Shown: positions 2,297 through 19,773 of the stretch, piece after piece
Layout: the number at the start of each line of letters is the position of its first letter
Numbering within the stretch: position 1 is the stretch's first letter
The notes under the pieces: generated by a model
Told to the model about the DNA's origin: nothing
Database searches by the model: none
The model's input: only the letters and a program-made list of their open reading frames with translations
Assembly: GCA_002698785.1 (NCBI GenBank)
Contig: PAAG01000060.1
Span: 186,001-250,000 of the forward strand
Length of the DNA stretch: 64,000 nucleotides
Direction: 5' to 3'
Source: Verrucomicrobiales bacterium
GTDB taxonomy: Bacteria > Verrucomicrobiota > Verrucomicrobiia > Verrucomicrobiales > DEV007
Position numbers and translations under genes: made by a program

Positions 2297-3733
2297 TCAC
2301 TTTTCTTTCTTTTTCTTGAGCTTTGCCAGCGCCTCTCGACCCAATTTCGGACCGTTGTCAGCGGGCATTGCACCGTTCCAGTTTACGAGCCCCGTCACCA
2401 ATCGGTCGACGACTTCCGGGTTTTTCTCGGCCACATTATTTTCTTCAGAAACGTCGGTCGACAGGTCATAGAGCTGCGGGTTCGATCCGTCGTAGTCGCA
2501 GAGGAGTTTCCAGTTCTCGCTACGCACTGCCAGATCGGGCAAACCGACATAGTGACGAAAGACTTTCCTGTCAGGCGGACGGCGAAAGTAGAGCGGCTTT
2601 TCCCGGGATTTCTGCGAGTGTCCGGTGATCGTTTGAGAAAGGTCTTCACCGTCAAAAGAGACTCCTTCGGGAACGGCAGTGTTCGTGAGAGACAGCAGCG
2701 AGGGAACGAGGTCGATGGCGGAAAAGACGGACTCTTGGTTGCGGGTTCCTACCGCTTCTTTGGCCATGAAGCCGGGGGCCCAGACGACGAGCGACGAGCG
2801 CACTCCTGCCTCGAAAAGGGTGGCCTTGTTTCCGCGAAGCGGACCGGCAGAGCCAAAGCCGACCTCGGGGCCGTTGTCCGAGCAAGCAAGGATAATCGTG
2901 TTGTCCCGCAGCTTCGGATCGTTGTGCACGAGGTCGAACAGCGGAGCGAGCTGCCGATCCATTTCCTTAAGGACCTCGAGATACAAATGGCGATCGCTTC
3001 CGTCCCCCCATTTTTTGACCGGAGGATGCATGGGGGTGTGCACGTCGTCGGGCCAGAGGTTGAGGTAAAACGGAGTGTCGTTCTTTGCCGCGTAGCGGGC
3101 GAAAGTGGTAGCGGACTGCACGAATTTCTCAGTCACGAAGGCTCGGTTGTGCCAGATCACAGGGCCGTGGCCTAGGGTGTCCGAACCGAGGTTGTGCTCC
3201 GCTGGCTTTTTCTTTCCGGGAGAAAACTTCAGGGGAAGGACACGCGCACCGAGCCCCTCGAAGTTCGTGATCGATTCGTCGAAGCCATATTCCGTGATCA
3301 ATGGTGCCTCGTCGATGTCGCGCTGCCCACCCATGTGCCACTTGCCAAAATGTCCCGTCGCATAGCCCGACTCCTGGAGGATACGGGCGAGCATGGGAGC
3401 TTCCAGATCGAGCCAGTCGGCGACACCGCGATAGGCATTGGACTCACGATTGTTGAGATACGAGGTGATCTTCCACCGCTGCGGATATTGTCCCGTCGAG
3501 ATCGCAACACGTGAGGGCGAACAGATAGGCGAGTTCACATAGAACTGCTCGAAAGCGATACCTTCCTTTGCGAGACGATCAATGTTCGGCGTTTCCGCCT
3601 CCGTATTTCCAAAGCAGGAAAAATCTGCCCAGCCCATGTCATCGATAAAAACGAGGATGACGTTCGGGCGTGGAGCTGCGCTGGAGAAAAGGGGAAGAAA
3701 GAGAAATGTCAGGAGAAGAAAGCGGGGGATCAT
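2297..3733 (-). CDS. Exported sulfatase (S1 family)
   Basis: Formylglycine-dependent sulfatase that hydrolyses sulfate esters, probably on a polysaccharide. The ATG at 3733 gives 478 residues starting with a signal peptide (MIPRFLLLTFLFLPLFSSAA). A longer frame to 3772 would place charged residues before it. The metal-binding aspartates are at D31-D32 (FIDDMGW), and the maturation motif is C71-S-P-S-R, where the cysteine becomes formylglycine. GKWHMGG and later DNGPEVGFG motifs complete the S1 signature. The C-terminus is lysine rich (KKKKEK). No formylglycine-generating enzyme or anaerobic maturase lies in the window. It is divergent from the SDR gene, with 163 bases between. The substrate is unknown. 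Confidence 0.93.
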   Translation of the reverse strand: MIPRFLLLTFLFLPLFSSAAPRPNVILVFIDDMGWADFSCFGNTEAETPNIDRLAKEGIAFEQFYVNSPICSPSRVAISTGQYPQRWKITSYLNNRESNAYRGVADWLDLEAPMLARILQESGYATGHFGKWHMGGQRDIDEAPLITEYGFDESITNFEGLGARVLPLKFSPGKKKPAEHNLGSDTLGHGPVIWHNRAFVTEKFVQSATTFARYAAKNDTPFYLNLWPDDVHTPMHPPVKKWGDGSDRHLYLEVLKEMDRQLAPLFDLVHNDPKLRDNTIILACSDNGPEVGFGSAGPLRGNKATLFEAGVRSSLVVWAPGFMAKEAVGTRNQESVFSAIDLVPSLLSLTNTAVPEGVSFDGEDLSQTITGHSQKSREKPLYFRRPPDRKVFRHYVGLPDLAVRSENWKLLCDYDGSNPQLYDLSTDVSEENNVAEKNPEVVDRLVTGLVNWNGAMPADNGPKLGREALAKLKKKKEK

Positions 3734-14814: not shown

Positions 14815-15369
14815 TTGGAATTCGGTGGTGAACTGCGTGGCACTGAGCATGTCGTCGAGTTTGATGAATCGTCGGGAGACGTAGTAAAACTGACTATCCC
14901 ACCAGGATTCGGATTAACTCCAGAGTTGGTTTCGCATCCGGTTGTTACTGCGGCGGAGGGAACTTCCGATGCAGCAGTACGACATGCCATCGAATTTAGA
15001 AAGGGAAGTCCGCTGGAATATTTGGAACGGTGGCTTTGCTCTAATGAAGTATTTGAAGACGATGTACGGCTCGCTTCGGTTGTTTCGTGGGCCGACGGGA
15101 GTGTATCCTTTTCCATTCGTCAACCTCAGTATGATGGCGAAGTTACTTCCCAGGTTGAGATCGAAGACTTCTTTGTTGCGGCGGGTTGGATAAAGCTAGA
15201 CCGAGAAAAGGAGCACGCGATTTTTTTCAATTATGCATTTCAAGTAATGGCAATCGACGCACTACCTCGGAACTGCTACAAGCGTGATGGAAGAATATTG
15301 CCGTTTGATGTAATTCTATGCCGTCCATCACAGGCAATCGAATCCTATTTGGAGATATATCCTTCTTAG
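14815..15369 (+). CDS. Kinase-PolyVal-like protein, 5' end disrupted
   Basis: The TTG at 14815 is only the first usable start in this sequence; the protein very likely begins about 75 codons upstream. The visible 184 residues match what I know of the putative polyvalent-protein kinase domain (atypical Ser/Thr/Tyr kinase): EHVVEFDE with KLTIPPGFG, then PLEYLERWLCSNEVFEDD, QPQYDG, and a late AIDALPRNCYKRDGRILPFDV resembling the catalytic and metal-binding end. Such domains are common in phage-borne polyvalent proteins and in free-standing chromosomal genes of unknown role. The family call is from memory of the motif order and is moderately sure. It is convergent with the exosortase gene, 4 bases away. 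Confidence 0.55.
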   Translation: MEFGGELRGTEHVVEFDESSGDVVKLTIPPGFGLTPELVSHPVVTAAEGTSDAAVRHAIEFRKGSPLEYLERWLCSNEVFEDDVRLASVVSWADGSVSFSIRQPQYDGEVTSQVEIEDFFVAAGWIKLDREKEHAIFFNYAFQVMAIDALPRNCYKRDGRILPFDVILCRPSQAIESYLEIYPS

Positions 15370-15373
15370 ATTT

Positions 15374-16660
15374 TCAGTCGCGACAGAGCAACTGCATCCT
15401 GGTGACCGCCCACCAGGGTCCTTCTGTCTTCTGAAACGTTGCTGCCCAGAACCATCGTGAGACGTTGTCCCATTTCTTGTGCTCGTTGTAGATCGATTCT
15501 TCGACGAGGTAGGTGCCTTGTTCACTGGTTGCGATGAAGGTGCCGTCCCGTTCGTTCGCGATTTCGAATCCCACGGCGCGTAGGCAGTCGGACGCCGAGT
15601 GCAGTTTTCTGGTGGGGCGTGTGACCCAGCGCATAATGATTTTGTCCGGGCCGGTGGTGAACGCACTAATTTGGCCTGGAAAGTTTTCTGCAAAGCGATT
15701 TTCGGAATCCGTGAGAGGGAGTGTCTCCAGGTAGCGGTCATCCCATTTCTCGGGCCAGCCGGGAAATGGGATATTGCTATCGACAGCTGAAGGCTCGGCT
15801 TGAACAAGTAAAGGCCCGAGCGCGATGGCTAGGCAGGCTGCCGCATTGGCGAGTAGATAGCGGGGCGTTTGCGAAACGAGAGGCGGGCATTTTGCTTCCG
15901 ACTCTGGTCTGCCTTTTTCCATCCCACGCGAAAGAAACCAGACCAGAATTCCAAAGAGGGCGATCCCGATTCCTTCGTGCGTCCACTCGGGAAGCGATAC
16001 GATCCCGGCCTCTTTGAGAAAAAGGAGAGTAACTCGGGCGCAGTTGGAGACGACTACTGATACACTCCCTACCGCTAGCGCGACGATTGTACGAATCATG
16101 GAGTATCGGCGGAAGGCACAAAGTAGGCTGACGATGAAGAGACCAGCCCACAGCATTTCCACACCACTGCACGGTGGGTCGACGCCAACACGATTGCCCT
16201 GCCAGAAGAGTTCAGTCCCAGACCGAGTGACTTCGAGTAGAGTAAGAGTGAGGATGGACTCTGCAGATACTGCCGCAGCCATACGGAGAGGATATCCAAT
16301 GTAGAACTGAAGACTCGCGATGAGGGGAAGGGAGAGTGCGAATGTCGCCCAGATTCCCGGCTTTGTTCGAATAGTGCCCGTAGCTACCGCGATGATCCCG
16401 ATAGCCAGTATGGCGGAAATCATTGCGGGAACCCATGGCCTTGAGATTGCATGGATTGCGACGAGTGAGACCGCGAGAAGGACGTTTCGGTTTTCGATTC
16501 TTACATCTCGACGATCTCGCCAGAGTAGCCCAAATCCTGCCAGAAGTGCGATGATGCCATAGGGTTCATCCGATCCGTCCGTCATCCGCTGCGCATACCA
16601 AAGCCATTCCGGCCATAGCGCAATGAGAAGACAGATGATGGGAAGGAAACGACGTTTCAT
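15374..16660 (-). CDS. Exosortase with EpsI-like C-terminal domain
   Basis: Integral membrane transpeptidase-like enzyme that cleaves C-terminal sorting signals of exported proteins. With the ATG at 16660 it has 428 residues: about eight membrane segments and the exosortase triad C164 (DPPCSGVEMLW), R209 (NCARVTLLF) and H228 (EWTHEGIGI). Residues about 280-428 form an EpsI-like exosortase-associated domain facing the periplasm. An upstream GTG at 16684 would overlap the preceding gene's TGA as GTGA, so either start gives tight coupling. It is directly downstream of the VIT/vWA gene, which ends in a sorting-signal-like tail. This is therefore a dedicated enzyme-substrate pair. Confidence 0.88.
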   Translation of the reverse strand: MKRRFLPIICLLIALWPEWLWYAQRMTDGSDEPYGIIALLAGFGLLWRDRRDVRIENRNVLLAVSLVAIHAISRPWVPAMISAILAIGIIAVATGTIRTKPGIWATFALSLPLIASLQFYIGYPLRMAAAVSAESILTLTLLEVTRSGTELFWQGNRVGVDPPCSGVEMLWAGLFIVSLLCAFRRYSMIRTIVALAVGSVSVVVSNCARVTLLFLKEAGIVSLPEWTHEGIGIALFGILVWFLSRGMEKGRPESEAKCPPLVSQTPRYLLANAAACLAIALGPLLVQAEPSAVDSNIPFPGWPEKWDDRYLETLPLTDSENRFAENFPGQISAFTTGPDKIIMRWVTRPTRKLHSASDCLRAVGFEIANERDGTFIATSEQGTYLVEESIYNEHKKWDNVSRWFWAATFQKTEGPWWAVTRMQLLCRD

Positions 16661-16680
16661 CACGTGTGGAGGGCCGACGT

Positions 16681-18675
16681 TCACGCTTCCTGCTTGCGAA
16701 GGAAGCGCCGTCCGAAAAGGGCAGAGAAAGCAATGATCAGTAAGGGGATGATACCCGGCCCGGGAGTGCCTCCACCACCCACTGCTGAGGCAGGAACACC
16801 TTTGGGAAGAGGAAGCGGTTGCTTGACTGTTTTGGCAGGACCTTCGCCTGCGTGGCGGACTTTGCTGTCGACGGCAACAAAAGACGTATATTCTGTGAGT
16901 AGACCGTACGTAAGTCCAAGATTGGTGATCTGCTGTTTCAGGTCTGGATCGTCATTTTGAGGCCCTTTGTAATCAGAAAGGTGGGCGATGCGATCTCGCG
17001 CCCATAGATAGGGGAGGGCAGGTTGATCGGTCGAGTCCGATTGTACGGCAACGTTCTGCCCGAACTCTCCATCGCCTCCCGTTCCCGAAATGCGGATGGT
17101 GCCTTTCACTTCTCCCTGCCATTTTCCGAATAACGTAAGTGGCCGATCGGCGAGGATGTCGGGTGCGTTTGCGGGTTCCACGTCGTAGGCGTCGAAACCT
17201 TCGAAATCGACTTTTACGTTTGTGAGGACTGGAGAGGCAATATAGTCCCGGAGTTGAATGGCCTTCTCTCTGGCAAATGCATGGTCAGTGACAATGAACG
17301 GTTCCCCTCGACCCACTCGAGCCATGCCTTCTATGAGGTAGCGGTTTACTGACGATCCGATTCCGAAAGCAAAGAGGTTGGCATTTCCAAGGTTCTTCTT
17401 CACAAGGTCGAAGGCATCGCGCTCGAAACTGACGTAGCCGTCGGTGACCACCACCACCGACCTCGACATGTTTTCGTCTCCAGGAAGTGAGATAGCCTGC
17501 TCCAGGGCGCTCACGAGTTCAGTTCCTCCGTTTCCGCGAAGGCTGTTCATCCAACTGATGGCGTCCTTTCGATTTTTTGAGGTAGCAGATACCATCCCCT
17601 TCGAAAAGACGTCGGATCCTCCGGCGAAGGCGAGAATGTTAAACCGGTCCGTGTCCTGCAAGGTGGAAAAGATCTCCTGCATTAGAGTTTTGGCAGTGTC
17701 GAGAGGAAACCCATTCATCGATCCTGACACGTCGACAACGAAAATATACTCCCGGCCAGGAATCTGGTCGGGCGTGACTCGTTCCGGGGGCTGGACCGTC
17801 AGGAGAAAGAAGTTTTCATCTTCTCCTTCGTGAAGGATCAAGCCACTCTGGATTTCACGGTCGGCGAGTCGATAGCGAAGAATGAAATCTCTGTTACCAG
17901 CGTTCGCCTTCTTACCTGTGAGGCTGATGTTGGCACGGGAATCCTTTTCGAATTTGATATCGGTGGGGTGGGTGTCGCAAGCCAGGTCTTGAATCGGCAT
18001 CCCAGCATCCAAAGTGACCGAGATATCGAACGTCGTAGGATCGACAACTCCTTCCTTGAGATACGGATTCGATACCCACTGGCTGCCCTGGGTATTTTGT
18101 GTGCCAGCGTAGCGAGGGCCGACGACTGTCGGAAAGGAAAACTCATAGACCTTATCAGTGGGGGCGATGTATTCGGTGTACCGTAGAACGACTTCGACTG
18201 TGTCTCCGGGAAGAATGTTCGCTACGTTCATCTGGAAGACATTGGGTCGGTGCTGTTCGAGTAAAGAAGCTGTCTTTCCTTCGCTCTTTGCCTCCTCGTA
18301 AATCTTCTTTGCTTTCTCTCTCTCCTGAATCTCTGCCTCGATAACGCGATCCTCGACCTTCAACGTGAGCCCGTGGACGGCTGCTCTGGTGCTGCCGGGA
18401 AACACATAAATGGCTTCGATGGTTTCATTGCCCCGATTCTGGTATACTTGGCGGACTTCAACATTGGCGATGATGCCGCTGATTTTGACCTCCGCATTTG
18501 TGGATTGGAGAGGAAGTTCTTCAGTGCCTCCCGATTCGGCACCGTTCTCGTTGATGACCTTGAAGTAAGGAGCGAGTGTCTTGTCTTCGCCCAGCGCATC
18601 TTCGGGAAGGCCTGCGTAGAGTCGAGGTAGTCCGAGTAGGACCGCGAGCAAAAGGTAGTTTGCGATTCGGTTCAT
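16681..18675 (-). CDS. VIT/vWA protein with C-terminal exosortase sorting signal
   Basis: 664 residues: signal peptide (1-22), a VIT domain (about 45-170, with FPGSTRAAVHGLTLKVEDR), and a von Willebrand A domain whose metal site DVSGSMNG begins near residue 314. A beta-rich region follows. The C-terminus is tripartite: GTPGPG, a short hydrophobic stretch IIPLLIIAFSALF, then basic GRRFLRKQEA. This resembles PEP-CTERM-type sorting tails. VIT/vWA proteins are known single targets of dedicated sortases or exosortases in other phyla. It probably ends up attached at the cell surface or outer envelope and binds proteins or matrix through the vWA metal site. It is upstream of and coupled to the exosortase gene. 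Confidence 0.9.
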   Translation of the reverse strand: MNRIANYLLLAVLLGLPRLYAGLPEDALGEDKTLAPYFKVINENGAESGGTEELPLQSTNAEVKISGIIANVEVRQVYQNRGNETIEAIYVFPGSTRAAVHGLTLKVEDRVIEAEIQEREKAKKIYEEAKSEGKTASLLEQHRPNVFQMNVANILPGDTVEVVLRYTEYIAPTDKVYEFSFPTVVGPRYAGTQNTQGSQWVSNPYLKEGVVDPTTFDISVTLDAGMPIQDLACDTHPTDIKFEKDSRANISLTGKKANAGNRDFILRYRLADREIQSGLILHEGEDENFFLLTVQPPERVTPDQIPGREYIFVVDVSGSMNGFPLDTAKTLMQEIFSTLQDTDRFNILAFAGGSDVFSKGMVSATSKNRKDAISWMNSLRGNGGTELVSALEQAISLPGDENMSRSVVVVTDGYVSFERDAFDLVKKNLGNANLFAFGIGSSVNRYLIEGMARVGRGEPFIVTDHAFAREKAIQLRDYIASPVLTNVKVDFEGFDAYDVEPANAPDILADRPLTLFGKWQGEVKGTIRISGTGGDGEFGQNVAVQSDSTDQPALPYLWARDRIAHLSDYKGPQNDDPDLKQQITNLGLTYGLLTEYTSFVAVDSKVRHAGEGPAKTVKQPLPLPKGVPASAVGGGGTPGPGIIPLLIIAFSALFGRRFLRKQEA

Positions 18676-18825: not shown

Positions 18826-19773
18826 ATGACCGATCGAAAGAGCCTCCCTCAGCAGAATGGAAAACTGTGCCTGACCGATGGCGGTGTTGAGACTGTCCTA
18901 TTATTCCAGAAAGGTATCGACCTGCCCGGATTTGCGACCTTTCCCATTCTGGATCGCGATGGGGGAGAGGATTTGTTCGAAGATTACCTGATGGACTACG
19001 TGGACATAGCACATCGCCACAAACACGGATTGATTCTCGACACGCATACCTGGCGTGCGAATCCCGATTGGGGTGGAAAGCTTGGGTATGATCGGAAGGA
19101 ACTCACCAGTGCACATCGACGCTCTACGGAATTTCTGGAGCGTCTGCGGAAAGGAAATGAACGGGAAGAGACTCCGATTTTGATTAGTGGTTCGATAGGT
19201 CCACGTGGAGACGGCTACCAAGCTTCTGAGGTGATGACACCAGAAGAAGCGGCCTCTTACCATCGTTTCCAGACACAGTTGTTTGCAGATTCGGCGGTCG
19301 ATTTTGTTTCCGCGATGACCATTACGAATGTCGACGAAGCTGCCGGTATTGTTCGGGCAGCAGCGGAGTTTGATTTGCCTGTCGTGATTTCCTTCACGGT
19401 AGAAACCGACGGGTGTCTGCCGAGCGGGCAACCACTGCACCAGGCGATTCGAGAGTGCGATGCGCTGTCAGACTCGTATGCTTCGTATTATATGATCAAT
19501 TGTGCTCACCCGAGTCATTTCTCCGAGACACTTGAGGTAGGAAGTGAATGGCTGGAACGACTAGGAGGGGTGCGAGTGAATGCCTCCCGATTGAGTCACG
19601 AGGAATTGGACAATGCCGAGGTATTGGATGATGGAGATCCTGCAGAATTGGGCAAAGAGGTAAGTGAACTTTTTGGTCGCATACCTTCCCTCAATGTGTT
19701 GGGTGGTTGTTGTGGTACCGACAGTCGCCATGTTGCTGAAATCGCCTGCGCAATAGGTGAACAGAGTCGGTAG
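18826..19773 (+). CDS. Homocysteine S-methyltransferase family protein
   Basis: 315 residues, the size of the single-domain zinc methyltransferases that methylate homocysteine to methionine using S-methylmethionine or betaine-type donors. The N-terminal LTDGGVETVLLF is the family's GG(x)ET signature. The zinc cysteines are in NCAHP (near residue 226) and GGCCGTD (near 293-296). No cobalamin or folate domain is present, so it is not MetH. The donor is not predictable. Starts at the ATG at 18826 in a 150-base divergent region shared with the VIT gene. The gene that follows begins 53 bases after its stop. Confidence 0.9.
   Translation: MTDRKSLPQQNGKLCLTDGGVETVLLFQKGIDLPGFATFPILDRDGGEDLFEDYLMDYVDIAHRHKHGLILDTHTWRANPDWGGKLGYDRKELTSAHRRSTEFLERLRKGNEREETPILISGSIGPRGDGYQASEVMTPEEAASYHRFQTQLFADSAVDFVSAMTITNVDEAAGIVRAAAEFDLPVVISFTVETDGCLPSGQPLHQAIRECDALSDSYASYYMINCAHPSHFSETLEVGSEWLERLGGVRVNASRLSHEELDNAEVLDDGDPAELGKEVSELFGRIPSLNVLGGCCGTDSRHVAEIACAIGEQSR

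Follow-up and report, generated by a model that had tools for sequence, protein, structure and literature searches.

A putative one-enzyme, one-substrate exosortase unit with a Pro-Gly-Pro sorting tail in a Verrucomicrobiales bacterium

Here we describe a pair of genes in a 64,000-nucleotide stretch of a Verrucomicrobiales bacterium genome (assembly GCA_002698785.1, contig PAAG01000060.1, positions 186,001 to 250,000; hereafter the window), in which the gene for a VIT/vWA protein is followed on the minus strand by an exosortase gene. We consider it likely, at a probability of roughly 80%, that the two form a dedicated surface-sorting unit of one enzyme and one substrate, and that the recognition motif of the substrate comes from a PEP-CTERM tail in which, before two species diverged, Glu changed to a Gly that both have kept. 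The pairing in outline is already known and is widespread. New relative to the literature searched are the Glu-to-Gly change and the Pro-Glu-Ser and Pro-Glu-Ala tails of related, mostly cyanobacterial pairs. No description of the Pro-Gly-Pro form of the tail was found in that literature, which left most subscription journals out of reach, and nothing relevant was found there by title for XrtQ, the exosortase subtype whose model matches the window enzyme best.

Results

The VIT/vWA protein (16681-18675, minus strand, 664 residues) matches the Pfam models VIT (E 2e-35) and VWA_3 (E 1.2e-19). Its vWA metal-site residues D315, S317 and S319 are invariant in 34/34 aligned VIT/vWA homologues (the family model scan likewise covered 34 VIT/vWA proteins), and a signal-peptide-like stretch, MNRIANYLLLAVLLGLPRLYA, was read by eye at the N-terminus. 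The C-terminus reads TPGPG-IIPLLIIAFSALF-GRRFLRKQEA and has the three parts given in a preliminary description of the locus: a GTPGPG motif, a hydrophobic stretch and a basic end. On the minus strand these are the motif TPGP at residues 637-640 (16756-16767), which replaces TPEP (Pro-Glu-Pro in 61 and Pro-Gly-Pro in two of 63 readable homologues), the hydrophobic residues 642-654 (16714-16752) and the basic end RRFLRKQEA at residues 656-664 (16684-16710). The protein thus has the tripartite tail of PEP-CTERM proteins at its extreme C-terminus, and this tail is homologous to tails that carry Pro-Glu-Pro, but the motif itself is Pro-Gly-Pro and neither PF07589 nor TIGR02595 is matched. Both models are weak on VIT tails: TIGR02595 misses the Pro-Glu-Pro tail of one relative (G444) and PF07589 that of another (G442; G and L mark genomes and loci of relatives throughout), so the absence of a match is weak evidence.

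The exosortase gene lies at 15374-16684 on the minus strand and encodes 436 residues from a GTG at 16684 or 428 from an ATG at 16660. The protein matches Pfam Exosortase_EpsH (E 5e-23; PF09721, 82.2 bits, cut-off 25.7) and TIGR04178 (41.5 bits, cut-off 23), which places it in the exosortase family. It contains the motifs CxG, NxxR and HxxxG with the catalytic Cys, Arg and His that are described in the accessible part of PMC1569441. Numbered from the GTG, the catalytic codons are those of Cys172 (16169-16171), Arg217 (16034-16036) and His236 (15977-15979), all on the minus strand. After removal of 15 duplicates from 114 exosortase loci, and of two more for length, 97 sequences were aligned; C172, G174, N214, R217 and H236 are invariant in all of them, including the triad that the preliminary description had noted in the enzyme, and G240 is invariant in 30/30.

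A profile search against exosortase subtypes, suggested in the same description, placed XrtQ first (NF012182, 175.9 bits, cut-off 270) and XrtT second (NF033770, 105.5 bits, cut-off 250), and neither cut-off was reached. Both models are matched by all 30 exosortases in the family model scan, and XrtQ is the top model for 14/14 related exosortases tabulated. Three proteobacterial relatives, from Pseudomonas mangrovi, an Azoarcus and Corticibacter populi, do pass the XrtQ cut-off (L156, 349.8 bits; L170, 343.9; L181, 302.4), and each adjoins a VIT/vWA protein with a Pro-Glu-Pro tail; three others (L157, L161 and L169) do not reach it. The window enzyme is therefore XrtQ-like, not an XrtQ member by the curated threshold, and the pair is part of a broad XrtQ-like family.

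Pro-Gly-Pro is the rare form of the motif. Once L096 and L118 are set aside for broken or fused frames (in a different frame the tail of L096 has TPEP), 61 of the 63 readable VIT/vWA tails carry Pro-Glu-Pro and two carry Pro-Gly-Pro, namely those of the window and of G414, a species of the same genus. Two further species of the genus (G394 and G397) keep Val-Pro-Glu-Pro. In a quick tree the two Pro-Gly-Pro exosortases are sisters (Shimodaira-Hasegawa-like approximate likelihood ratio test, SH-aLRT, 100) and are nested in an eight-row set from one family, their own (support 95); of the remaining six rows, five have Pro-Glu-Pro and one has a broken frame. The preliminary description had proposed that the PGPG-like motif defines its own exosortase subtype; this is not supported, since the enzyme is placed inside a clade whose other readable members have Pro-Glu-Pro tails. 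The motif is best read as a PEP-CTERM tail in which, late and in a single lineage, Glu changed to Gly.

A sequencing error as the source of the Gly can be set aside, given two assemblies with different Gly codons (CCC GGG CCG in one species, CCC GGT CCC in the other). The last 55 residues of the two proteins are 75.9% identical (41/54), compared with 63.2% for the rest of the protein; for three other pairs the tail and body values are 70.6 versus 68.6, 90.9 versus 88.9 and 80.0 versus 78.8%. By this comparison constraint on the Pro-Gly-Pro tail is no weaker than on a Pro-Glu-Pro tail. With the Gly codons differing and the tail conserved as in other pairs, it looks like a real and maintained change.

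One alternative is that the change marks a genuinely new specificity, the enzyme having been altered to read Gly and the pair insulated from ordinary PEP-CTERM systems. Motif and enzyme did change on the same branch: alignment column 407, acidic in 80/81 other rows, holds N and G in the Pro-Gly-Pro pair, and column 114, Leu in 93/94, holds T and V. However, no conserved basic partner for the Glu has been lost at positions conserved in at least 80% of the Pro-Glu-Pro enzymes, and control pairs of similar identity show as many shared changes, counted by residue class in 26, 11 and 3 of 87 pairs (thresholds 90, 95 and 97%) and by residue identity in 12, 19 and 7 of 88 pairs (80, 90 and 95%; the 88 include the Pro-Gly-Pro pair itself). 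The joint change of motif and enzyme is for this reason a lead only, and we think a new specificity rather unlikely.

Decay of the motif is a weaker alternative still. If the function had been lost in this lineage, the protein would stay in the inner membrane, and the retention of Glu in 61/63 tails fits such a view, as do the near-invariance ascribed to Pro-Glu-Pro in the portion of PMC1569441 at hand and the loss in both enzymes of the acidic residue 407, which lies in the C-terminal domain. Set against this are the conservation of the tail above that of the body, the intact catalytic residues of both enzymes and the continued linkage of the two genes in both species. Codon differences between the two species also fall mostly at third positions (0.37/0.26/0.66 for the exosortase, 0.31/0.21/0.65 for the VIT gene); synonymous divergence (dS) is saturated, which precludes a nonsynonymous to synonymous ratio (dN/dS). 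Taken together, decay seems quite improbable.

Dedication was assessed in the source genome, a draft of 60 contigs and 95.89% completeness. A rule-based tail scan of the 334 open reading frames (ORFs) of at least 60 residues in the window returned the VIT tail and two more, at 16664-16960 (plus strand, opposite the final part of the VIT gene) and 2679-3068 (plus strand), each of which has PSP as its motif. A profile built from the two Pro-Gly-Pro tails found the VIT gene in the source genome at E 2.4e-35, its sole other match being at E 1.46 inside a 1322-residue frame, so that no other protein convincingly shares the tail. PF07589 and TIGR02595 recognised no PEP-CTERM proteins in the source genome (at E 0.1 and at E 1) or in G414. 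With a single protein carrying the cognate tail, dedication in the source genome appears well supported; the unique tail, the lack of PEP-CTERM model matches and a gene order kept across phyla all agree with the dedicated pair in one operon put forward in the preliminary description.

Across 40 genomes searched for exosortases, the VIT-linked enzyme is the only one detected in six. By TIGR02595, one of these has no match (G414), two have the VIT tail only (G440 and G442) and one has the VIT tail and a second match at E 0.96 (G443); G336 and G439 are taken up in the Discussion. Where a genome has additional exosortases and numerous PEP-CTERM proteins, the tail gives no verdict on dedication.

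The pairing extends well beyond this genus. When 384 genomes of the class were searched for the exosortase, 26 of them, source genome included, had matches at E <= 1e-8, and a VIT/vWA gene adjoins the exosortase on its upstream side in all 22 genomes with a match at E <= 1e-28 (source genome not counted). The three weakest matches (E 1.6e-9 to 4.8e-11) have no VIT homologue in the surrounding stretch examined and are probably other exosortases. Named genomes yielded 247 exosortase relatives when scanned, and the best 80 come from Verrucomicrobia, Proteobacteria, Cyanobacteria, Acidobacteria, Armatimonadetes and others. A close VIT/vWA gene is present at 65 distinct loci (Verrucomicrobia, Proteobacteria and one Riflebacteria), and at all 65 it precedes the exosortase on the same strand. 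VIT homologues lacking the tail beside such an exosortase, which would have spoken against a cognate pair, were looked for and none was seen among the 63 readable loci. No proteobacterial homologue was found in plasmids. At L096, in genome G439, the VIT gene and the exosortase are both frame-broken, reflecting either a decaying unit or assembly errors.

A further 34 distinct loci have no close VIT/vWA match, and the upstream ORF is readable in 30 of them. It encodes a VIT domain in 25/30, mostly in longer proteins, and the tails of the 30 carry Pro-Glu-Pro (17), Pro-Glu-Ser (6), Pro-Glu-Ala (5) or none of these (2). The 11 Ser or Ala tails (L121, L122, L124, L127, L130, L134, L138, L153, L164, L171 and L178) belong to ten records of Cyanobacteria or Melainabacteria and to one uncultured bacterium that groups with them. 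Three of the upstream ORFs without a VIT domain are, judging from length, the short ones at L164, L168 and L182, and the other two, at L128 and L135, are kinase-like and without a PEP tail. At these two loci (L128:3459-7311 and L135:1901-5753) an XrtQ-like exosortase overlaps the gene of a protein with kinase, PEGA and FGE-sulfatase parts.

The window exosortase has a C-terminal soluble domain from about residue 300 to the end (15374-15787, minus strand), assigned as XrtT-type from profile matches. The preliminary description had reported a fused EpsI-like domain: the fusion stands and the EpsI label is imprecise, given that TIGR02914 reaches only 12.4 bits (E 0.085, cut-off 42.8) and XrtT is matched instead. 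In some relatives the domain is a separate neighbouring gene, and the stand-alone proteins of three relatives match only the C-terminal part of XrtT (E <= 1). The predicted structure consists of a multi-helix part followed, past the last long helix, by a mixed strand-helix domain (mean predicted local distance difference test score, pLDDT, 87.7); a fold search of this model against the PDB gave no significant match (best E 0.37).

Both exosortase starts given earlier are present: the GTG at 16684 shares bases with the TGA that ends the VIT gene (GTGA), and the ATG at 16660 lies 20 bases past that stop. The 20-base gap is the likelier layout, because the first start codon in the exosortase ORF of the closest relative aligns with the ATG. 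The flanking ORFs, at 14815-15369 and 18826-19773, are both on the plus strand, and the unit is therefore two genes only. Promoter-like sites at the locus numbered 0 compared with 2.3 in shuffled sequences, terminator-like sites 5 compared with 4.8, and the two flanks of the unit contain no inverted repeats.

Discussion

Gene order, domains, catalytic residues, uniqueness of the tail in the draft assembly and ancestry of the motif are read from the sequence; from there we infer a route of export, cleavage, transfer to an acceptor and a role for the vWA protein. What is known of exosortases, as far as the available portions of PMC1569441 and PMC3237569 go, suggests export, membrane parking, chemistry by Cys, Arg and His, and delivery to the surface. 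Export of the VIT/vWA protein would go through the Sec pathway, and the hydrophobic stretch and basic anchor at its C-terminus would hold it in the inner membrane. The exosortase encoded next to it, a multi-pass protein, would then read the tail at TPGP, cleave it with Cys172, Arg217 and His236 and transfer the VIT/vWA protein to an acceptor, probably a lipid or glycan, so that it ends at the cell surface, where the vWA metal site and the VIT domain probably serve binding or self-association. The motif itself would go back to a normal PEP-CTERM tail whose Glu became Gly in the ancestor of the two species and was retained.

Several points weigh against a dedicated unit of this kind. Cleavage of the TPGP tail by the exosortase is a prediction from sequence, and all genomes are drafts in which genes may be missing. 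The pair is sporadic, with a close VIT/vWA match (E < 1e-190) in 12/74 genomes of the family. For one close homologue with a TPEPG tail (L102:4859-6820), no exosortase was found on the 10-kb contig that carries it, although other contigs of the genome (G447) carry three. Two single-exosortase genomes do not fit strict dedication well: G336 has 23 PEP-CTERM matches including the VIT tail, and no second exosortase was found in this draft genome with the second enzyme of its sister as query, and G439 has, in addition to the VIT tail, two matches of which one is clearly a PEP-CTERM protein. The source genome also has a second exosortase of another subtype in a polysaccharide locus (L060:8968-9852, contig C2), an enzyme for which the VIT protein is a conceivable substrate. 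It might be this second enzyme that sorts the VIT protein, the genome having yielded no PEP-CTERM protein for it, while the neighbouring one does something else; this is highly improbable, given that G414 has the same tail without a second detected exosortase (in a 600-contig draft) and that the VIT-exosortase neighbourhood holds across phyla.

The dedicated pair can be compared with several known systems. One paper bearing closely on it was, we presume, written by Haft and Varghese. In its accessible text, that study (PMC3237569, 2011) describes a VIT/vWA family with alternative GlyGly-CTERM, LPXTG and PEP-CTERM tails, defines dedicated systems, and includes a PEP-CTERM VIT/vWA protein with its cognate exosortase in Verrucomicrobium spinosum. 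As far as that text goes, the V. spinosum system shares with the window pair the protein family, the kind of tail, a cognate exosortase and the phylum, but its tail is a PEP-CTERM recognised by TIGR02595, whereas the window tail is Pro-Gly-Pro and unrecognised. In the Verrucomicrobium strains BvORR034 (L139) and BvORR106 (L133), the VIT/vWA gene and the exosortase lie side by side.

The window protein is also homologous to the marine proteobacterial sortase target TIGR03788 (452.8 bits), which like the window pair has one enzyme beside one substrate, according to the part of PMC3237569 available. It falls below the TIGR03788 cut-off (551.65) and is not a member, and that system uses an LPXTG tail and a dedicated sortase where the window has Pro-Gly-Pro and an exosortase. 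The XrtN substrate TIGR04477 is, like the window protein, a VIT-domain exosortase substrate, but its model is longer (822 positions) and gives no match to the window substrate at E <= 1; 8/8 tested substrates from related non-vWA loci do resemble it, all below its cut-off. Rhombosortase and GlyGly-CTERM differ from the window pair in both enzyme family and motif. In two genomes of the window's genus, G412 (L107:5539-8286) and G407 (L108:5468-8178), a distantly related VIT/vWA paralogue whose tail is rich in Gly adjoins a rhombosortase (TIGR03902, 94.9 bits at L107 and 87.8 at L108, cut-off 84).

XrtQ-like enzymes are thus tied to VIT-domain substrates in several phyla, and within a single genus the partner of one protein family is an exosortase in some species and a rhombosortase in others. 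A sequence search for a solved structure related to these exosortases found none (best chance match E 0.27), so how the tag is read must be learnt otherwise. A single-substrate enzyme with a natural tag lacking Glu, and with close relatives that keep it, offers a ready comparison for the reading of Pro-Glu-Pro. Because an enzyme and its single substrate can change together, we tentatively suggest that the otherwise near-invariant tag may be free to drift in one-to-one VIT-exosortase systems, from Glu to Gly in this genus and, in pairs that are mostly cyanobacterial, by replacement of the second Pro with Ser or Ala. If so, these natural variants would help to show which residues of the exosortase recognise the Glu and which the second Pro.

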